NCBI GenBank assembly: GCA_949752745.1
Contig: OX457029.1
Coordinates: 45,060,500 to 45,124,499, forward strand
Source of the DNA: Protula sp. h YS-2021
Taxonomy: Eukaryota > Annelida > Polychaeta > Sabellida > Serpulidae
Length of the DNA stretch: 64,000 nt
Reading direction: 5' to 3'
A program made the position numbers and the translations under genes. The notes under the pieces are model-generated. The model was given only the letters and a program-made list of their open reading frames with translations. It was not told the DNA's origin and searched no databases. Within the stretch, counting starts at the first letter, position 1. Each line of letters opens with the position of its first letter. Shown here one piece after another: positions 2,661 to 61,304 of this stretch.

Positions 2661-3137
2661 GAAATGTGTAATATTGCCCGCAGTTCTCTATTTTCACAGT
2701 TTCTTGCACTTACTGTACACGAAATGTGTATTATCGCCCGCAGTTCGCTATTTCCACAGTTTCCTGCACTTACTGCGTAGTCTATGAAATTGAGAGCTGA
2801 AGGTCTACTTTTCTCTGGCTGATCTAATATCATATACTTAATTTGCTTACAATGTGTTTAAATGAGTTGATATAACATGTCAGCAGTTTTTTTGTTTTGT
2901 TTAGGAACGAGCTACTTGTACAAAAGCTGTAACCAAAATCAAATTATGCAACACAGACACGTATAACTGCCAAGGTATTGTCACATTCGGCCCATCCAGC
3001 ATCCAGTACCACCAGAGTGTGTAAGCATAACTTTCAATGGTACACAGTAGTGAGATGCCTGACAATCACCCGAAACATTTTATTAATACTTCATCTGACT
3101 AGATCACCGTCCAGAGTCGAACATACTTTGCGACGGA
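2661..3137. other. Unassigned sequence between repeats
   Basis: This holds a short duplicated block (TACACGAAATGTGTA at about 2656 and 2716, each followed by CGCAGTTC) and the left flank of the giant inverted-repeat element. No gene is supported. Confidence 0.4.
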
Positions 3138-3443
3138 TAGTAGGGGAGAAACGGGGGTTCTAAAACAGGAAGTGACGTCATAGTGACGTCACATGGTGTT
3201 TTAAAACCCCCACGGGGGTTCTAAAACAGTGACGTCATATTGACGTCACTGTGGGGAAAACCCGATCGATAAATTTCAGAGTGCACTCGTACAGAGTGTG
3301 GGGGAAAACCGATCGATAAATTTTAGAGTGCACTCGTTCAAAGCGTGGGAACGATCAATAAATTTGAGAAGGAATGGGATTTTCAGCAGGATAAAAGTGT
3401 GGCTCCGAAAACAGGAAGTGACGTCATAATGACGTCACGAGGT

Positions 3444-3473
3444 GTTTTCGGAGCCCCATGGGGCTCCGAAAAC
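3444..3473. repeat. Perfect 30-bp palindrome, left arm
   Basis: This is a self-complementary block centred on CCATGG, flanked by TGACGTCA-like sites. A looser palindrome (TTTTAAAACCCCC / GGGGGTTCTAAAA) sits nearer the terminus at about 3198-3226. Terminal hairpins of this kind can serve replication or transposition; that is inference. Confidence 0.8.
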
Positions 3474-3539
3474 AGTGACGTGATTGTTTTCGAATTCGCA
3501 TGGGTATTTTGAAACAGGTAATCGAAAGAGCGCGCGCCC

Positions 3540-3722
3540 GTTCAATGACGTCATGATGACGTCATCATGACGTTATAATGACGTCATCATAATGACTTTA
3601 TAATGACGTCATCATGACGTTATAATGACGTCATCATCATGACGTTATAATGACGTCATAATGACGTCATCATGACGTTATAATGACGTCATCATCATGA
3701 CGTTATAATGACGTCATCATGA
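3540..3722. repeat. CRE-motif (TGACGTCA) tandem array, left arm
   Basis: Repeated ATGACGTCAT blocks alternate with ATGACGTTATA. TGACGTCA is the palindromic cAMP response element bound by CREB/ATF bZIP factors. More copies lie at 3170-3260 and 3420-3480. Confidence 0.8.
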
Positions 3723-3896
3723 TGTTATGGCATATTAAGACAGTTCTAAGCAGGATAACCCTAAGTCGCCTGTCAATCATCATGACGTCATTAGTCACGT
3801 GACCTGTCAATCATCATTGGTCACATGACCTGTCAATCATGTGTGATGTGATTCCAACCGCATATGAGGAATATTTTCCTGCTGATTAACCTTCTG

Positions 3897-3981
3897 GCCT
3901 GAATGGCTCAGTTGGTAGAGCAGAGGACCCGTAAGCGGACCCATGATCTGAAGGTCGGTGGATCGAACCCGCCCTCGGGCA
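3897..3981 (+). tRNA. tRNA-Met-like sequence in the left TIR (probable pseudogene)
   Basis: A 7-bp acceptor (GCCTGAA with CTCGGGC, one mismatch), a good D arm (GGCTCAGTTGGTAGAGC, matching the A box) and a T arm (GGTGG/CCGCC around ATCGAAC) can be drawn. The block CATGATCTGAAGGTC matches the anticodon-to-variable region of elongator tRNA-Met (CAT). An extra 12 bases before the anticodon and a T-loop starting with A instead of T argue against normal function. An identical-length copy lies in the right arm. Confidence 0.55.
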
Positions 3982-4016
3982 TCACTTTCATATCATGGGT
4001 CCTCAATCTTAGAAGA

Positions 4017-4240
4017 CCCCCCCCCCCCCCAGGATCAAGACATGACATGAATCGAACCCCACCCCCCCCAGGATCAAGACATGACATGAATCGGACCCCC
4101 CCCCCCCAGGACCAGGACATGACATGAGTTGACCCCCCCCCCCAGGACCAAGACATGACATGAATCGGACCCCCCCCCCAGGACCAAGACATGACATGTA
4201 TCGGACCCCCCCCCCGGACCAAGACATGGCATGTATCGGA
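4017..4240 (+). repeat. C-rich 34-bp tandem array, left arm
   Basis: About six units of a poly-C run followed by AGGACCAAGACATGACATGA. The poly-C length varies between units. The opposite strand has G-quadruplex potential. Confidence 0.8.
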
Positions 4241-4331
4241 CATAGTCATATAGCTATATGACTATGTAATTGCTATGTGAACATAATTAGTTTCAAGTAT
4301 GTATGTCATTATCAGATCGTTCAACAGTCAA

Positions 4332-4404
4332 GCCGCGATAGCTCACTTGGCAGAGCAAACGGCTAGCAACCTGAGAGTCCCGGAATCGATACCACATCGG
4401 GGCA
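4332..4404 (+). tRNA. tRNA-Ala-like sequence in the left TIR
   Basis: A 73-nt cloverleaf-like block: acceptor GCCGCGA with a TCGGGGC-type partner (one mismatch), D arm AGCTCACTTGGCAGAGC, anticodon loop CTAGCAA giving AGC (Ala), and a degenerate B box GGAATCGATACC. A T run follows directly, as at Pol III terminators. The anticodon stem pairs poorly, so it may be a pseudogene. The right arm has the counterpart at 10103-10175. Confidence 0.5.
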
Positions 4405-4508
4405 AACTTTTTTTTGGTTTTTTGTTCACTTTTATGACTCTGTGACATTATGTGACAACATGTGATTGTGACATCATGTGACTCTGTGACATTATGTGAC
4501 TGTGACTG

Positions 4509-4542
<34 letters not shown>

Positions 4543-4914
4543 AATGGTTATATTTCTATGTCTATTTTCACTATTATTATGATAATATTTAATTAGTCAT
4601 ATTTCAATGGTTCTAACCACACAGCATAGGAATACGTACATGTGTACAGAGTGTGGGGAAACCGATCAATAAATTTTAGAGTGCACTCGTTCAGAGTGTG
4701 GAGGAAACCGATCGATAAAATTTCAGAGTGCACTCGTTCAGACCGTGGGAACGATCGATAAATTTGAAAACATCAAAGGCCTAGACCGTGGGAACAATCG
4801 ATGAATTTGAAAACATCAAAGGCCTAGACCGTGGGAACGATCAATAAATTTCAGAGTGCACTAATTCAGAGCGTGGGAACGATCAATAAATTTGACAAGG
4901 AATGGGATTTTCCA

Positions 4915-5700
4915 CAACTCTATGTTTTATGTTATAGTAGTTGGAAAATGACACTTCTAAAGCACATTTAACAAATGTAGGTTTTTATAACATATAATAT
5001 ATAAAATAAGTTTGAACATTTTAGCATGCTACTTATTTAAATGTTCTAAAGTTATAGTAGTGGAAAAATGGTGGTTCTAGACCAACTTTAACAAATTTAG
5101 TTTTTAACACCATATGATATATAAAATAAGTTTGAACATTTAAGCATGCTACTTATTTGAATGTTCTAAAGTTATAGTAGTGGAAAAAATGATGGTTCTA
5201 GACCAACTTTAACAAATTTAGTTTTTAACACCATATGATATATAAAATAAGTTTGAACATTTTAGCATGCTACTTATTTGAATATTCTAAAGTCATAGTA
5301 GTGGAAAAATGATGGTTCTAGACCAACTTTAACAAATTTTGTTTTTTGACAAAATATGATGTATAAAATAAGTTTAAACATTTTACCATGGTGTAGTAGG
5401 GTAAAAATAAGGGTTCTAGACCAACTTTAACAAATTTAGTTTTTAACACCATATGATATATAAAATAAGTTTGAACATTTAACCATGCTACTTATTTGAA
5501 TGTTCTAAAGTCATAGTAGTGGAAAAATGGTGGTTCTAGACCAATTTTAACAAATTTTGTTTTTTGACAAAATATGATGTATAAAATAAGTTTGAACATT
5601 TTACCATGGTGTAGTAGGGTAAAAATAAGGGTTCTAGACCAACTTGAACAAATTTTTGTTTTTTTTGACAACATATGATGTATAAACAAATTTAGTTTTT
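4915..5700 (+). repeat. Roughly 140-bp tandem repeats, left arm
   Basis: Units share GGTTCTAGACCAACTTTAAC, a CATATGATATATAAAATAAG block and ACTTATTTGAATGTTCTAAAG. Five to six units, some shortened. Mirrored in the right arm. Confidence 0.85.
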
Positions 5701-5906
5701 TACACGTTTCAGACGATTCTACCACTTGGTTGGTTGGTTGATTGTTGGAAAATGGGAAGTGAAAATGTTGATAGTTATGTAGGAAAACTGCGCCTATTCA
5801 AAAGACGTGTTCGAATGGCAAGTCCATTTTAAAGACGTGTTCGAATGGCAAGCCCATTCAAAACACGTGTTCGAATAATTTTTGAAAGATATTACGTCGT
5901 GGTATT

Positions 5907-6141
5907 GTTCAACAAATTGTTCAACATGTTCAACACGTTCAACATGTTCAACATGTTCAACATGTTCAACAAGTTCAACATATTCAACAAGTTGTTCAAC
6001 ATGTTGTTGTTCAACATGTTGTTCAACATGTTCAACAAGTTCAACAAGTTCAACATGTTCAACTTGTTCAACAAGTTCAACATGTTCAACAAGTTGTTCA
6101 ATATGTTGTTGTTCAACATGTTGTTCAACATGTTCAACATG
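5907..6141 (+). repeat. 9-bp (GTTCAACAT) array, left arm
   Basis: Near-continuous GTTCAACAT/GTTCAACAA units end a few bases before the TATA box. Each unit junction forms AACATGTT. It is longer than the right-arm array by about 95 bp. Open frames through it (FNMFNMFN-like) are repeat artefacts. Confidence 0.9.
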
Positions 6142-6144
6142 TTG

Positions 6145-6153
6145 TATATAAAG
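6145..6153 (+). promoter_or_regulatory. TATA box of the left-arm promoter
   Basis: TATATAAAG lies just inside the 9-bp array, pointing into the core. The identical site sits in the right arm, so both element genes probably share a promoter carried by the TIR. A consensus donor (GTGTAAGT, about 6187) between this TATA box and the PC4 start suggests a spliced leader. Confidence 0.6.
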
Positions 6154-6205
6154 CTATGTTTAAAGACTTTCTCATCATTTGAATAGTGTAAGTTGAACCG
6201 AAAGG

Positions 6206-6265
6206 ATGTATACATGCAACATTTGTTCGAAATCTTACAATTGGCTGCAAAGTCGCATATGGTAA
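6206..6265 (+). pseudogene. Truncated zinc-finger start carried by the left TIR
   Basis: The left arm repeats the first 16 codons of the zinc-finger gene (MYTCNICSKSYNW then L for P), then leaves the repeat and stops after R-I-W. It is a by-product of the TIR reaching into the coding region of the opposite gene. In a transcript from the left TATA box it would act as an upstream ORF unless spliced out. Confidence 0.7.
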
Positions 6266-6412
6266 AATTATTTCTAAACATTTTAGGACATAGTGTGTCC
6301 AACCTCGAGTGTGGCAGCTACCTATAGAGCATAAAAGGTACCTGCCCTCAGACATAACGCACATTCTGTATCAAGATACTGAAGAGTATGTCTGCAGTAT
6401 GTCTCACTGAAC

Positions 6413-6955
6413 ATGTCTGCAGTGAGTGAACAACAACTACCATCTATGGCAATGCCTGCAGAAAATTTTATAGCAAAGCCTGAGACAATACCTACAGCAA
6501 AGTCTAAGGCAATGCCCATGGTAAAGTCTAAGGCGAAGTCACGTCAGCAGCGTCAAAAGCGACCACATATTAGAAAGATAAAAAGAGATGAGTTACCAGC
6601 TATGACGCCGCCGTGTAAAATGCGAAAAAATACGACAGAGCCTAATGTGAAACGAGAACCGGAGCGTAAAGCTGATACCACTATGAAGAAGATGCGTGTA
6701 GACGATTCACCGGTTATGATACCCATTAATGGAGAAACATATATTAAATTGGTGAATTATCAACAGAAAGTGATGGTTAACATTCGTAAATATATTACGA
6801 ATCATGCATCTGGGAGGTTATATCCTACCAAGAAGGGAATTTTGTTGTCATTGAAAGACTGGCACATGTTGAAGAAGCAAATGACGTCAGTGGATCTCAT
6901 GCTTCAGAAAATGGATCTGTATAAATGCAGTGACTGTCAGAAGATGGTTGAGTAG
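6413..6955 (+). CDS. PC4/p15-like ssDNA-binding protein encoded by the TIR element
   Basis: This is a 180-residue protein. Residues 1-100 are basic, Lys/Pro/Met-rich and low complexity (AKSKAMPMVKSKAKSRQQRQ). Residues about 103-170 match the PC4/Sub1/KELP fold: the ETYIKLVNYQQKVMVNIRKY strand pair and the YPTKKGILLSLKDWHMLKKQ block, which correspond to the V-x-I-R-x-Y and P-x-K-K-G-I-x-L-x-x-x-x-W-x-x-L family signatures. PC4 proteins bind single-stranded DNA as dimers and act in transcription or replication. This ATG was chosen because the earlier one at about 6388, within a duplicated ATGTCTGCAGT, stops after 13 codons. A short CxxC (CSDC) lies near the C-terminus. The gene lies in the core between the arms, convergent with the zinc-finger gene. 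Role in transposition is unknown. Confidence 0.8.
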   Translation: MSAVSEQQLPSMAMPAENFIAKPETIPTAKSKAMPMVKSKAKSRQQRQKRPHIRKIKRDELPAMTPPCKMRKNTTEPNVKREPERKADTTMKKMRVDDSPVMIPINGETYIKLVNYQQKVMVNIRKYITNHASGRLYPTKKGILLSLKDWHMLKKQMTSVDLMLQKMDLYKCSDCQKMVE

Positions 6956-7272
6956 ACAGCGAGATGACTGTATACAGTTTTAACAGCATGACGAGCTTAG
7001 TGGATGCTGTGATTTCATCACAGTGCAGAAGATTGGACCGACGGTTTTGAAGCTTGACAAGAACTTAGCTTTGACTCATATGGACATGTACATTTGATAT
7101 GTAGTTCAAATTAAATTGTCTTCATATGTAGATTATGAAATTAACTTTATCTATGTTCATGTGAAGTCAGTTGTTATAAAATTTTAAGTTTAGTTCTTCT
7201 GCACATGTATTAACATAATATGTATTTGAAATAGTTTTGTTTTTATCATAATTGTACATATTTGTAATGTTC

Positions 7273-7278
7273 AATAAA
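7273..7278 (+). terminator. Poly(A) signal of the PC4-like gene
   Basis: AATAAA about 320 bases after the stop codon, before an AT-rich minisatellite. Confidence 0.55.
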
Positions 7279-7321
7279 AACACATATGATGTTTTTCAAC
7301 TTTTTATTTTTCTCATATAAT

Positions 7322-7432
7322 ACTTGGATATAATACATAATAAAACAATACTTGGATATAATACATAATAAAACAATACTTGAATATAATACATAATAAT
7401 ACAATTCTTGAATATAATACATAATAATACAA
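7322..7432 (+). repeat. 28-bp minisatellite in the element core
   Basis: Four units of a TACTTGGATATAATACATAA-type sequence plus TAAAACAA lie between the two convergent genes. Confidence 0.85.
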
Positions 7433-7577
7433 AATTAACTATAATACCCAATATATGATATATGGTTTACGGGTCAATTAAAACCGTGTCAGGAACCTTA
7501 CGACTTTATATGTTGTAAAGCAAGACATATATTACACAACGCTTAAGTTAATAAAATATTACAACATTTATAAAGTC

Positions 7578-7583
7578 TTTATT
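7578..7583 (-). terminator. Poly(A) signal of the zinc-finger gene
   Basis: AATAAA on the minus strand, about 22 bases past the stop codon at 7605. Confidence 0.55.
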
Positions 7584-7604
7584 ATAAAGTTTAGTCAAAT
7601 AAGT

Positions 7605-8339
7605 CTATTTTTCTGCATCTGTTTCACTCTGTTCACTGCCCATGCCACTTTTGTTGTCACTGCTACCATCCTCCTCCTCCTCCATATCTAGTAGCTCTTC
7701 AAAGAATGCATTGTTTTTCCTTATAGCCGCCTTTAATGCCTTTGAATACTTATAATGTTTTTCATCAACAAAGTAATTAAAGTCCTCTAAAATCTTTTGA
7801 TAATGTTTGCTTTGTTGTAGACGCTGGGTATAGTTGAACAGTCTCATAAACAGTTGTTTTAGTCCATGCTTATAAATGGGTCGAAGGTCATAACTTGCTA
7901 TTTCACGCGCATCTTCAAGTCCTTGTTCTTCATATTCTGAAACCTTTTCTTGAAATATGTTATCATAGTCATCGTAGACGTCTTGAGCCATATCATGCCA
8001 AACAGAGTCTATTTCTGACTCACTTTCAGAGTCTGTTTCTGACTCACTTTCAGAACTCCTGTCATCAGCATCCGCACCACACTGCTCGATATGTTTGAGC
8101 AAAGCTTCTTCACTGTTGTATAATGCACCACATTCTGTACAACCATGTGCATTCTTTTCAGCTATGTTGACGCTTTGACTTTCCATAGAAGACTCATCTA
8201 AAGTTTCCGTGAAAGGTAGTTTTACAGGGTTTTCCATATCCGATTCTTCATCCTCTTCTGAAGCGTGAGCAACCTTTAAGTGTCTTTTAAGACTTTGCGG
8301 CCAATTGTAAGATTTCGAACAAATGTTGCATGTATACAT
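7605..8339 (-). CDS. C2H2/C2HC zinc-finger protein encoded by the TIR element
   Basis: This is a 244-residue protein. Finger 1 is a classical C2H2 (C4, C7, H20, H25). Finger 2 is C2HC (C67, C70, H83, C87). A long acidic Ser/Glu/Asp-rich linker (about 88-115) follows, then a helical domain (about 116-222, including IYKHGLKQLFMRLFNY) that I do not recognise by name, then an acidic tail. The first 16 codons lie in the right TIR and the rest in the core, so the coding region straddles the repeat boundary. A TATA box sits 53 bases upstream and a poly(A) signal just downstream. Binding to the TIR arrays is a plausible role, by inference. No nuclease motif is visible. Confidence 0.75.
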   Translation of the reverse strand: MYTCNICSKSYNWPQSLKRHLKVAHASEEDEESDMENPVKLPFTETLDESSMESQSVNIAEKNAHGCTECGALYNSEEALLKHIEQCGADADDRSSESESETDSESESEIDSVWHDMAQDVYDDYDNIFQEKVSEYEEQGLEDAREIASYDLRPIYKHGLKQLFMRLFNYTQRLQQSKHYQKILEDFNYFVDEKHYKYSKALKAAIRKNNAFFEELLDMEEEEDGSSDNKSGMGSEQSETDAEK

Positions 8340-8391
8340 CCTTTCGGTTCAACTTACACTATTCAAATGATGAGAAAGTCTTTAAACATAG

Positions 8392-8400
8392 CTTTATATA
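8392..8400 (-). promoter_or_regulatory. TATA box of the zinc-finger gene
   Basis: TATATAAAG on the minus strand, 53 bases before the ATG. It is the same site as 6145-6153 in the left arm. Confidence 0.65.
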
Positions 8401-8401
8401 C

Positions 8402-8541
8402 AACATGTTGAACATGTTGAACAACATGTTGAACAACAACATGTTGAACAACTTGTTGAACATGTTGAACTTGTTGAACATGTTGAACATGTTGAACATG
8501 TTGAACGTGTTGAACATGTTGAACAATTTGTTGAACAATAC
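8402..8541 (-). repeat. 9-bp array, right arm
   Basis: Inverted copy of the GTTCAACAT array, shorter than on the left. It lies directly upstream of the TATA box of the zinc-finger gene. Confidence 0.9.
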
Positions 8542-8719
8542 CAGGACGTAATATCTTTCAAAAATTATTCGAACACGTGTTTTGAATGGGCTTGCCATTC
8601 GAACACGTCTTTAAAATGGACTTGCCATTCGAACACGTCTTTTGAATAGGCGCAGTTTTCCTACATAACTATCCACATTTTCACTTCCCATTTTCCAACA
8701 ATCAACCAACCAACCAAGT

Positions 8720-9600
8720 GGTAGAATCGTCTGAAACGTGTAAAAAACTAAATTTGTTAAAGTTGGTTTAGAACCCTGATTTTGACCTTACTACACCATG
8801 GTAAAATGTTCAAACTTATTTTATACATCATATGTTGTCAAAAAAAAACAAAAATTTGTTCAAGTTGGTCTAGAACCCTTATTTTTACCCTACTACACCA
8901 TGGTAAAATGTTCAAACTTATTTTATACATCATATTTTGTAAAAAAACAAAATTTGTTAAAATTGGTCTAGAACCACCATTTTTCCACTACTATGACTTT
9001 AGAACATTCAAATAAGTAGCATGGTTAAATGTTCAAACTTATTTTATATATCATATGGTGTTAAAAACTAAATTTGTTAAAGTTGGTCTAGAACCCTTAT
9101 TTTTACCCTACTGCACCATGGTAAAATGTTTAAACTTATTTTATACATCATATTTTGTCAAAAAACAAAATTTGTTAAAGTTGGTCTAGAACCATCATTT
9201 TTCCACTACTATGACTTTAGAATATTCAAATAAGTAGCATGCTAAAATGTTCAAACTTATTTTATATATCATATGGTGTTAAAAACTAAATTTGTTAAAG
9301 TTGGTCTAGAACCATCATTTTTTCCACTACTATAACTTTAGAACATTCAAATAAGTAGCATGCTTAAATGTTCAAACTTATTTTATATATCATATGGTGT
9401 TAAAAACTAAATTTGTTAAAGTTGGTCTAGAACCACCATTTTTCCACTACTATAACTTTAGAACATTTAAATAAGTAGCATGCTAAAATGTTCAAACTTA
9501 TTTTATATATTATATGTTATAAAAACCTACATTTGTTAAATGTGCTTTAGAAGTGTCATTTTCCAACTACTATAACATAAAACATAGAGTTGTGGAAAAT
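8720..9600 (-). repeat. Roughly 140-bp tandem repeats, right arm
   Basis: Inverted counterpart of the array at 4915-5700, with the same GGTCTAGAACC and ACTTATTTTATA landmarks. Confidence 0.85.
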
Positions 9601-10102
9601 CCCATTCCTTGTCAAATTTATTGATCGTTCCCACGCTCTGAATTAGTGCACTCTGAAATTTATTGATCGTTCCCACGGTCTAGGCCTTTGATGTTTTCAA
9701 ATTTATCGATTGTTCCCACGGTCTAGGCCTTTGATGTTTTCAAATTTATCGATCGTTCCCACGGTCTGAACGAGTGCACTCTGAAATTTTATCGATCGGT
9801 TTCCTCCACACTCTGAACGAGTGCACTCTAAAATTTATTGATCGGTTTCCCCACACTCTGTACACATGTACGTATTCCTATGCTGTGTGGTTAGAACCAT
9901 TGAAATATGACTAATTAAATATTATCATAATAATAGTGAAAATAGACATAGAAATATAACCATTATGTTAAAAAAAAAAAACAAAAAAACAAAAAAAACA
10001 GTCACAGTCACATAATGTCACAGAGTCACATGATGTCACAGTCACATGTTGTCACATAATGTCACAGAGTCATAAAAGTGAACAAAAAACCAAAAAAAAG
10101 TT

Positions 10103-10175
10103 TGCCCCGATGTGGTATCGATTCCGGGACTCTCAGGTTGCTAGCCGTTTGCTCTGCCACGTGAGCTATCGCGGC
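10103..10175 (-). tRNA. tRNA-Ala-like sequence in the right TIR
   Basis: Inverted counterpart of 4332-4404, same length, with a few substitutions including one in the D arm (CACGTGAGC versus GCTCACTTGG on the other arm). An A-rich block on the plus strand gives the same downstream T tract. Confidence 0.5.
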
Positions 10176-10287
10176 TTGACTGTTGAACGATCTGATAATG
10201 ACATACATACTTGAAACTAATTATGTTCACATAGCAATTACATAGTCATATAGCTATATGACTATGTCCGATACATGCCATGTCTTG

Positions 10288-10487
10288 GTCCGGGGGGGGG
10301 GGGGGTCCGATACATGTCATGTCTTGGTCCTGGGGGGGGTCCGATTCATGTCATGTCTTGGTCCTGGGGGGGGTCAACTCATGTCATGTCCTGATCCTGG
10401 GGGGGTCCGATTCATGTCATGTCTTGATCCTGGGGGGGGGGGGGGGGTTCGATTCATGTCATGTCTTGATCCTGGGGGGGGGGGGTC
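10288..10487 (-). repeat. G-rich 34-bp tandem array, right arm
   Basis: Inverted counterpart of 4017-4240. Homopolymer G runs of 7-13 bases separate GACATGACATG-type spacers. Confidence 0.8.
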
Positions 10488-10520
10488 TTCTAAGATTGAG
10501 GACCCATGATATGAAAGTGA

Positions 10521-10605
10521 TGCCCGAGGGCGGGTTCGATCCACCGACCTTCAGATCATGGGTCCGCTTACGGGTCCTCTGCTCTACCAACTGAGCCATT
10601 CAGGC
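10521..10605 (-). tRNA. tRNA-Met-like sequence in the right TIR (probable pseudogene)
   Basis: Inverted counterpart of 3897-3981 with the same 12-base insertion before the CAT anticodon, so the insertion predates the arm duplication or is kept by gene conversion. Confidence 0.55.
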
Positions 10606-10710
10606 CAGAAGGTTAATCAGCAGGAAAATATTCCTCATATGCGGTTGGAATCACATCACACATGATTGACAGGTCATGTGACCAATGATGATTGACAGGT
10701 CACGTGACTA

Positions 10711-11170
10711 ATGACGTCATGATGATTGACAGGCGACTTAGGGTTATCCTGCTTAGAACTGTCTTAATATGCCATAACATCATGATGACGTCATTATAAC
10801 GTCATGATGATGACGTCATTATAACGTCATGATGACGTCATTATGACGTCATTATAACGTCATGATGATGACGTCATTATAACGTCATGATGACGTCATT
10901 ATAAAGTCATCATGATGACGTCATTATAACGTCATGACTAATGACGTCATGATGATTGACAGGCGACTTAGGGTTATCCTGCTTAGAACTGTCTTAATAT
11001 GCCATAACATCATGATGACGTCATTATAACGTCATGATGATGACGTCATTATAACGTCATGATGACGTCATTATGACGTCATTATAACGTCATGATGATG
11101 ACGTCATTATAACGTCATGATGACGTCATTATAAAGTCATCATGATGACGTCATTATAACGTCATGATGA
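10711..11170 (-). repeat. 230-bp tandem duplication with CRE arrays, right arm
   Basis: The block from ATGACGTCATGATGATTGAC through the TGACGTCA array occurs twice in a row with a 230-base period. The left arm has one copy. Confidence 0.85.
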
Positions 11171-11258
11171 CGTCATCATGACGTCATTGAACGGGCGCGC
11201 GCTCTTTCGATTACCTGTTTCAAAATACCCATGCGAATTCGAAAACAATCACGTCACT

Positions 11259-11288
11259 GTTTTCGGAGCCCCATGGGGCTCCGAAAAC
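11259..11288. repeat. Perfect 30-bp palindrome, right arm
   Basis: Same self-complementary block as at 3444-3473. Confidence 0.8.
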
Positions 11289-11949
11289 ACCTCGTGACGT
11301 CATTATGACGTCACTTCCTGTTTTCGGAGCCACACTTTTATCCTGCTGAAAATCCCATTCCTTCTCAAATTTATTGATCGTTCCCACGCTCTGAACGAGT
11401 GCACTCTAAAATTTATCGATCGGTTTTCCCCCACACTCTGTACGAGTGCTCTCTGAAATTTATCGATCGGGTTTTCCCCAAGTGACGTCAATATGACGTC
11501 ACTGTTTTAGAACCCCCGTGGGGGTTTTAAAACACCATGTGACGTCACTATGACGTCACTTCCTGTTTTAGAAGCCCCGTTTCTCCCCTACTACGGATGT
11601 TACGTGTTTATAAAAAATAATCAAATAAACCCCTTCGTAGTTTAGAGAACCATCAGGCAAAAAAAAAAACAAAAAAAAAAAACAAAAAACCTGTAACTTG
11701 GAAGGCCGAGAGTAAAAAGCCAAACAGATAAATGGGGAGAGAATTTCTTTAAAATTATAATGATTCATTTTTTCTTTTGAAAACCAATAACATAGAAGGA
11801 ATTTGTTAATGTTTCACATTTACTCAGCTTCACACAGGTGTACAAACTAGAAATCGCCACGTAGATTTCAATGAAAATTTTTCTTAATATTGTAGTAAAA
11901 ATGGTAAGATGTGTATATTTTGAAAAAAAGATATAATATTGTGATATTT

Positions 11950-16465: not shown

Positions 16466-31169
<14,704 letters not shown>

Positions 31170-56689: not shown

Positions 56690-57915
56690 GAGTTTAGCTC
56701 CAGGTCGGCTCTGACTTGTGTAACATCGTATATCTCTCTGTCAGAACTACGAAGCCTTCCACTTTTCCACTAATAGGGGTCAACTTCATATTCTGAGGCA
56801 CGAATCCTGCATACCAGCCCCTATTATTCAAATATTTACAGAAAGTGCATGCCTAGTCCCAGCGGACCCTTTCTATCTTCCAAGGACAGAAAGGGTCACA
56901 GTTCCTGCAATGGAAATAGCCATTGATCTCAATTTTCGAGGCTCTGGACACCGAGGCTCCAACTGCACACTGAGCACACTGAGAAGTACCCTGGCGCATT
57001 ATTTTCGATCTCAGCAAACTACGGTAGAGTAAAGCGTGGTTTTGCAACTAGTGATTCACCGTTATTGCGGGCGATAATGAGGATTCGCTATCCTGATCTC
57101 AAAAAAACATATTTTTCTCAGTAAAAAAAAGGTTATATGACCATAAAACTTGTGCGCCATAATTTATAATTGGGCCATTTATGTGTTGCACCTTTTCTAA
57201 AATAACGCCGTTGGCCCCAGTCGTGCGCCGAGATTTGAAAATTGACATCAATGACATTTCCTATCATAGGAACTATGACTCTTGCTGTCATAGGATGACC
57301 GCAAAAGTAATCTAGGACTAGTTCATGCCCAATATACCCTCTTCGTAAAACAGGCACAATTTTTAGTGCGCTGTATATCTTTTATTTGTTTATAAAAGTG
57401 CAGAAAAGTTAGCTTCCCCACCAACCTGTCAAATGTTTGTTTACATTCTGGCCTTTAAATGTCATGTGACCAAAGTCAAGTGCCAAAAAATTTAAATAAA
57501 GGGGTTATAGTTTATTTGTAAAATATATACTAAAATAGTTGATAGATGCAGAATTATGTATCAATTTATTTTGTACACCCACAATATTTGACGAACAATA
57601 TGTTCTTTTTGAAATACCATTTTAAAAGTTTTTTGGTGGATAATTGCAAAATTATTGTTACTTTTACACGTAATAAAGTATGCTCCCTGTATACAAACAC
57701 AGGTCAGTTATTGTGGGAGATTCGTGGTTACTTACGTATTATTTTCTTTTAAAGAAAGCGTAACGCAGAAGTTGTATACGATTACCGTTGTACTCTGAGG
57801 GCCTTTAGCAAATGCCAATAAAGACTTATGGGTCGTTGAATCTCGCACAAAGTAGCGACAGGAGTGCCTCAAAGCGAGCGCAGTTGACTTGCTTATCGTT
57901 ATATAGCGAGACATA
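56690..57915 (-). repeat. Repeat Y/Z copy B with repeat X inserted
   Basis: Z (56690-56835) and Y (57300-57915) are inverted relative to 1757-2660. Between them lies X (about 56845-57290), in the same orientation as 1104-1580. The Y-Z junction near 2335 of copy A is thus the insertion point of X here. Confidence 0.65.
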
Positions 57916-60314: not shown

Positions 60315-61304
60315 ATGGTGGGGCTGCGAGGCCGCCTACCTGAATTTATTAAAGTCTTTCTAGAAGACCGACGTTTTCGGGTCCGCCTTGGGGCCGTGTT
60401 CTCAGACTACTTCGAACAAGAGGAAGGTTTCCCCCAAGGATCCATCCTTTCCGTTCTTCTGTTCCTGATAAAAATAAATAGCATCCGACATAACATAAAA
60501 CAGGGGATAGACAGCTCACTCTTTGTTGACGATTTCGCAATATCTTGCAGAGCCAAGAATATGAAACTAATACAGCGACGCTTACAGCAGCACATACACT
60601 CACTGCAAACATGGGCTAACCAAAACGGTTTTAAATTTTCACAAACTAAAACAGTCTGCATGCATTTCTGCAATAAACGCAAACAACACGACGATCCCAT
60701 TCTATACATTTCTGGCATTCAAATACCTGTTGTTAAAGAAAACAAATTTCTGGGTTTACTCTTCGACTCCAAGCTAAGCTGTATCCCACACATCCAAGAA
60801 CTCAAACGAAAATGTCAAAAAGCACTCAATCTCGTAAGAGTAAAATCAGCCCATGACTGGGGCGTTGATCGGGATACAAAATTTATGCTTTACCGAGCCT
60901 TGATACGGTCTAGATTAGACTATTGCAGCATTGTCTATGGATCAGCAAGACCTTCATACCTAAAAATGCTAGACCCGATACAAAATCAAGGTTTACGACT
61001 GTGTCTAAACGCTTTTAGAACATCATCAGCAGAAAGCCTCCATGTGGAGGCAAATGAGCAGCCGCTTAACATTCGTCGAGTTAAACTCGCTATGCAGTAC
61101 ACAACAAAGCTTTATGCAAATAAGAAGAATCCCACCTACAACTCAGTCTTTGGATCAGATTTTTCTGGCTTCCATGAAAGAGGCCCTACCGTAATACCTC
61201 CATTTGGAGCGAGGGTTCAGCCTCACCTTGATAATGCTGACGTCACCATAGAGTCAATTGCAAAATACAGAGTACCAAAACTACCACAGTGGAAACTCAC
61301 CTAA
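60315..61304 (+). pseudogene. Reverse transcriptase part of the RT/RNase H LINE
   Basis: 329 codons open. EEGFPQGSILSVLLFLIKIN and SLFVDDFAISC (catalytic F-V-D-D) are RT motifs, then KTVCMHFCNKRKQHDDP, NKFLGLLFDSKL, IRSRLDYCSIVYGSARPSYL and FRTSSAESLHVEANE from the thumb. It starts within the palm, so fingers and endonuclease are lost. Confidence 0.88.

Follow-up and report, generated by a model that had tools for sequence, protein, structure and literature searches.

A probable gene-carrying Polinton/Maverick satellite in the genome of the annelid Protula sp. h YS-2021

Identification of the element

A 64,000-bp stretch of the genome of the serpulid annelid Protula sp. h YS-2021 (GenBank assembly GCA_949752745.1, contig OX457029.1, positions 45,060,500–45,124,499 of the forward strand), referred to here as the window, was analysed computationally and contained an 8.5-kb palindromic element with a PC4-type gene and a zinc-finger gene. 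We conclude with high confidence that this unit is a non-autonomous Polinton/Maverick satellite carrying genes of its own, and elements of this kind very probably depend on the Polintons of the same genome. The conclusion is based on the 6-bp target-site duplications and AGTAG ends, both of the Polinton class, together with an integrase-adjacent end elsewhere in the genome that matches part of the family.

The whole element was placed at 3139..11592 (8,454 bp, without assigned strand; positions are those of the window) with the ends AGTAGGGGAGAAAC...GTTTCTCCCCTACT, using inverted-repeat analysis, end comparison and further copies. The window copy runs from AGTAG to CTACT, with a perfect 6-bp target-site duplication, ACGGAT, on either side (3133..3138 and 11593..11598). 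An earlier sequence-only reading had delimited the unit at 3138..11593; the unit proved to be real, but each limit lies one base further in, as the outermost base is part of the ACGGAT duplication. That reading had also described more than 75% of the unit as inverted repeat, in agreement with the rebuilt palindrome, whose arms make up 6,418 of the 8,454 bp (76%).

Copies in the genome and their target sites

The genome assembly searched comprised 863 Mb in 218 contigs. A search with the terminal 263 bp yielded 40 long matches at 97–100% identity (the best 40 of 2,287 candidates scored), and the PC4 protein gave 150 matches at 96–100% identity (the best 150 of 6,739 candidates scored). Since all 150 scored PC4 matches fall within this narrow range, the element belongs to a large young family. 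Starting from the terminal matches, two of which are the ends of the window copy, 14 inverted pairs (L009–L022) and one pair lying 27 kb apart were fetched; the other eight matches were single ends. Four further copies (L042–L045) were picked via the PC4 gene and not via the ends.

The 14 fetched pairs were 7.5 to 9.4 kb long, with target duplications of 6 bp in 13 and 7 bp in one. Comparison of the duplications across copies, as the sequence-only reading had proposed, covered the 16 copies whose ends were determined from the sequence itself (the window copy, the 14 pairs and the host of a nested insertion described below); 15 of them had 6-bp duplications, which differed between copies, and the remaining one had 7 bp. 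L042 and L043 also had paired ends with a 6-bp duplication, as obtained from a search requiring a 6-bp repeat, and one end could be seen in each of L044 and L045. The start AGTAG was common to 18/18 copies. The exact AGTAGT occurred only in L014, L042 and L043, the others having AGTAGG (one end AGTAGA).

Copies L015 (C7:33177740-33186350) and L016 (C7:32607700-32616310) have the same flanks in opposite orientation, approximately 570 kb apart. They are thus one duplicated insertion, reflecting either a large inverted duplication in the host DNA or a feature of the assembly.

Some members differ from the window copy at their termini. The outer ends of L042 matched those of the window copy with 79% identity over 110 bp and those of L043 gave short matches only, while gene identity to the window copy in these end-divergent copies was 98% for PC4 and 95% for the zinc-finger gene. 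The gene pair was therefore kept while the ends changed.

Relationship to the Polintons of the same genome

The integrase of a local Polinton contains an rve domain (E 1.7e-13) and a chromodomain. When used as query it gave 111 matches (the best 111 of 9,352 candidates), 47 of them at 98–100% identity, 2 at 82–86% and 62 at 68–70%. The strongest single result of this study, which we regard as decisive, is an end at C2:45819641, located 3.8 kb from one of the 70% integrases (C2:45814738, second Polinton group). In the 243 bp read, this end matched the satellites from nucleotide 1, with identities of 97.9% to L042, 98.4% to L045 and 95.1% to L044; identity to the window copy was 79% over the first 110 bp, and L043 matched only further in. 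The match concerns one end of one copy, of which the integrase is the only gene read. Beside another 70% integrase, at C3:1106951, a stretch homologous to the satellite arms was found, which is 78% identical to the window copy (over 1,251 bp) and 89–92% to L043 and L045 (92% over 1,166 bp for L045). It also bears a tRNA-like sequence and arrays of the kind seen in satellite arms. Both loci support the earlier suggestion that the unit could be the non-autonomous partner of a larger element.

The sequence-only reading had reported no recognisable transposase. The Pfam scan covered the two named ORFs only. In addition, six local Polinton proteins (the integrase, PolB and the putative capsid, penton, protease and ATPase) were compared by tblastn (E 1e-3) with 17 copies (the window copy, L009–L022, L042 and L043). 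None of the six proteins gave a match at this threshold in any of the 17 copies, so that the claim holds, within this protein set, for the window copy and the 16 others; the alternative outcome named at the time, a known transposase in all other copies, was not what these copies showed. Since the gene content expected of a Polinton (PolB, an rve integrase, and capsid, ATPase and protease) was not found in them, the element is non-autonomous and not an autonomous Polinton.

The eighteenth copy, of 27 kb, contains a whole Polinton. This locus was considered as a single autonomous element with the element's repeats, and that candidate was rejected: the two ends 27 kb apart belong to a copy of the element (duplication AGTACA) into which a 19,040-bp Polinton has been inserted with a duplication of its own, GTTTTC. 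Polintons of this kind, 18.7–19.1 kb long, had AGTAGTGGG ends and 6-bp duplications in all three copies looked at. The nested Polinton encodes a 1,396-amino-acid (aa) protein read as PolB, which did not match the DNA_pol_B_2 profile, an integrase (rve and chromo) and a PC4 protein (E 6.1e-12; 33% over 104 aa in the PC4 comparison). Its ORFs of 457, 227, 141 and 214 aa were read by eye as capsid, penton, protease and ATPase and had no Pfam match. Two loci matching DNA_pol_B_2 (L037 and L038) belong to the same Polinton family, being 99.5–99.6% identical over most of the part read, with 6-bp duplications (CTCAGT and GCCGTC); the PolB gene is broken in L038.

Other Polinton-like loci were also compared. 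A group with a 1351-aa PolB (L034–L036) was first taken as a possible helper and then set aside, the homology of L035 and L036 ending at ACTACT. Locus L039, of a 1381-aa group, matched neither the element nor the nested Polinton, and the stretches L048 and L049 had no match to the satellites. Two opposed PolB matches within a few kb were seen at C5:28717970/28723094 and at C3:98126045/98130443, and may be palindromic or paired Polintons. L025 (3765-4400, minus strand) and L046 (3-431, minus strand) carry Polinton ORFs (211 aa and at least 143 aa, respectively) that resemble each other and are faintly PC4-like by eye; the 211-aa ORF of L025 had no Pfam match. Ahead of PolB in the nested Polinton, two RING-like proteins were seen (L023 8506-9057 and L024 1356-2027), with weak RING matches for the first and none for the second.

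Agreement of the two ends and proposed mechanism

Approximately 8 nt just inside AGTAG vary between copies, and in 12 of 14 copies the first 20 nt of the two ends were identical. With L016 excluded, the outermost 400 bp of 14 copies contained 26 informative sites, at which left and right agreed in 355/364 cells, compared with a mean of 239.5 and a maximum of 296 agreeing cells in 1,000 runs of permuted pairings. With L016 included (15 copies), 381/390 cells agreed against a permutation maximum of 318. Most simply, these data suggest that each round copies one end from the other, which is what protein-primed replication via a panhandle would produce.

A terminal hairpin, GGGGGTTCTAAAACA...TGTTTTAAAACCCCC around TGACGTCA sites, was located at 3153..3211 (plus strand) by folding against shuffled sequences; the single-stranded DNA fold of the terminal 122 nt had a z-score of -9.96, and 0/200 shuffles were equally stable. 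Within the outer 100 bp of the window copy and L009–L022, two forms of the stem sites seem to covary, TTCTAAAA with TTTTAAAA and TTTGAAAA with TTTTCAAA. The stem forms are alike at both ends of a copy.

The 6-bp duplication and the AG ends point to integration by a Polinton integrase, and from ends and duplications we infer mobilisation in trans by Polinton enzymes. The retrovirus-like integrase of the helper would join linear satellite DNA to the chromosome with a 6-bp stagger. The protein-primed PolB of the helper may copy the satellite from its hairpin-bearing terminal repeats, one end serving as template for the other. The satellite PC4 protein would bind the displaced single strand and the zinc-finger protein the repeat arrays of the arms, and both could thus aid the copying or expression of the satellite at the cost of the helper. 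A further-reaching version is offered tentatively, and we consider it rather unlikely: the unit might be a true satellite virus of animal-type Polintons, that is, a helper-dependent linear replicon which retains DNA-binding proteins of its own, follows the helper groups through changes in its outer ends while preserving the gene pair, rides in helper capsids, and has been massively multiplied in the genome.

Gene pair and alternative explanations

The claim that the unique part encodes a PC4-type and a zinc-finger protein was confirmed. The PC4-domain protein (180 aa; 6413..6955, plus strand) matched PF02229 with E 3.7e-10 and is represented by the 150 scored copies. The zinc-finger protein (244 aa; 7605..8339, minus strand) combines C2H2 and CxxC/HxxxC fingers and was assigned from its match to PF00096 (E 8.5e-07), from its relatives and from a model. 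The two genes are convergent and lie between the arms. Besides its two fingers, of which the C2H2 one is N-terminal, the zinc-finger protein has an acidic stretch and a helical domain. The helical domain had no convincing match to a known fold, which says little. Relatives of the protein (P0001–P0003, on short ENA contigs) were 34–46% identical in the helical domain, and the fingers were also present in two of them.

A plain non-autonomous deletion derivative, in which both genes are leftovers of a parent Polinton and play no role in spread, is the alternative that deserves most attention, and we give it a substantial though minor chance. It was raised to this level because a corrected count of nucleotide changes weakened the constraint on PC4. 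The count was made over 20 copies with each locus taken once (L009/L033 and L017/L032 are the same loci, and L015/L016 one duplicated insertion). For PC4, singleton changes numbered 33 nonsynonymous to 16 synonymous (ratio 0.52) and shared changes only 4 to 4 (0.25); for the zinc-finger gene the corresponding values were 38 to 9 (0.94) and 4 to 2 (0.45). Each gene was broken in 3 of the 20 copies, and the autonomous Polinton also has a PC4 gene; these two points, the low constraint on the zinc-finger gene and the small number of shared PC4 changes suit leftover genes. On the other side, the PC4 singleton ratio was 0.52, and 142 of the 150 scored PC4 frames had no internal stop, though best-first scoring favours intact copies. 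Between the window copy and L042–L045 the PC4 ratio was 0.15–0.19 (3 nonsynonymous, 4–5 synonymous changes), that of the zinc-finger gene being 0.89–0.96; yet against L010 the PC4 ratio was 1.26, resting on six changes. Moreover, the two genes remain linked in copies whose outer ends differ, and zinc-finger relatives of the same layout occur in other records. On these small counts, PC4 looks constrained and the zinc-finger gene hardly so.

More radical explanations appear far less probable. The zinc-finger protein might itself be the recombinase of a new superfamily, an idea for which its helical domain leaves room, but the Polinton-like 6-bp duplications, the AGTAG ends and a Polinton end matching that of the family make this very improbable. 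A small integrated virus replicating and packaging independently of Polintons would fit the hairpin ends, the regulatory arrays and two likely DNA-binding proteins; we rate it equally low, as the ends are of Polinton type and none of the six Polinton proteins was matched in the 17 copies tested. An assembly artefact, a risk the sequence-only reading had raised for the palindrome, or a single fold-back event is practically discounted: long palindromes are error-prone in general, but 17 other copies lie elsewhere with their own duplications (two sharing flanks), and the arms show genuine differences.

Several observations weigh against the reading as a gene-carrying, helper-dependent satellite. 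It is other family members that match the C2 end closely; for the window subtype the value is 79% over 110 bp, and no exact helper of this subtype was identified among the Polinton ends compared. The C2 helper is known from one end and its integrase alone, and 5.5 kb of sequence from the C3 copy contained an arm but no satellite-like end. A 15-mer is common to the nested Polinton and the L010-type end (0/300 controls), but the similarity of this Polinton to the end of the window copy does not exceed chance (8-mer, 147/300), and it had no match to the satellite arms besides simple repeats. Gene conversion after insertion could equalise the ends as well, and replication by the helper PolB is presumed rather than directly supported. 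Finally, the zinc-finger gene is little constrained, both in singletons and between subtypes, and, with copies of each gene broken, the function of the genes in the satellite is therefore presumed.

Arms and other features of the window

The left arm extends over 3139..6254 (plus strand), its inner end mirroring the first codons of the zinc-finger ORF, and the right arm over 8291..11592 (minus strand). Tandem arrays abound in both arms, which are near-identical. Up to position 6246, 17 substitutions distinguish them, and there are indels as well, one of them a 230-bp tandem duplication on the right side; the arms are therefore not one read copied. Arrays of TGACGTCA/TGACGTTA-type sites lie at 3544..3728 and 10780..11188, the latter doubled by the 230-bp duplication (10705-11167). 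A 121/218-bp tandem array occurs at 4931..5663, where it is homologous to sequence beside a Polinton integrase, and at 8797..9576. TGTTCAACA-type arrays lie at 5905..6143 and 8402..8525, the right one being one 102-bp unit shorter. TATA-like sequences were seen by eye upstream of both genes.

The arms had been said to carry regulatory arrays and tRNA-like genes. The arrays were recovered, while the tRNA-like sequences at 3897..3981 (plus strand) and 10521..10605 (minus strand) are weak: each scored 31.7 bits (E 0.011) in Rfam, where the gathering score is 29, and ARAGORN predicted no tRNA gene within the element.

Elsewhere in the window, a dense tandem repeat array of approximately 1.3 kb lies at 21154-22455, and a dispersed repeat occurs in inverted orientation at 1761-2324 and 57325-57910 (86% over 588 bp). 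A 329-aa ORF at 60315-61304 (plus strand) resembles, by eye, part of a non-LTR retrotransposon reverse transcriptase.

Comparison with known systems

Phages and giant viruses are well known to have gene-carrying satellites. The element resembles virophages and phage satellites in keeping its own genes while apparently needing a helper, which is meant as an analogy only. Foldback elements (FB, Galileo, Tetris) likewise consist mostly of long inverted repeat with internal tandem arrays; the present element resembles them in a general way in its long repetitive arms, but its end motif and 6-bp duplication point to Polintons.

The comparison with published systems draws on PMC2836005, PMC8097293, PMC10045372, PMC4028283, PMC9341505 and PMC6431247. 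According to this literature, Polintons have a 6-bp target duplication, and vertebrate Mavericks have (AGT)2 and (AG)3 end motifs, lengths of 12.7–24.6 kb, terminal repeats of 46–1,447 bp and converging gene modules. The opinion of the sequence-only reading that no named superfamily fits is therefore not upheld, since both the length of the duplication and the end motif fit Polinton/Maverick. With this class (polintovirus, adintovirus-like) the element shares 6-bp duplications, AGT/AG ends, terminal inverted repeats and convergent genes; with the local autonomous Polinton it shares a PC4 gene; and part of the family (L042, L044, L045) has its terminus in common with one integrase-adjacent end. 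It differs in that core genes such as PolB, integrase and capsid were not found in the 17 copies tested, and from vertebrate Mavericks in its size (8.5 kb) and in its arms of 3.1–3.3 kb. IS3EU/GingerRoot elements, defined by a 6-bp duplication with TA..TA (or TG..CA) ends, are unlike it, the ends here being AG..CT.

Non-autonomous Polinton families have been named in print, e.g., Polinton-1N1_DR (PMC9341505), which is known here by name alone and, by that name, would be moved by Polinton enzymes. A high-copy non-autonomous Polinton with an intact private gene pair was not found described in open-licence PubMed Central papers, and may be in print elsewhere.

To our knowledge, dependence on a Polinton integrase and protein-primed copying have hardly been shown directly so far. 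Many near-identical satellites beside many intact Polinton genes make both testable, and the satellite offers a short, high-copy substrate with natural marks on both ends.

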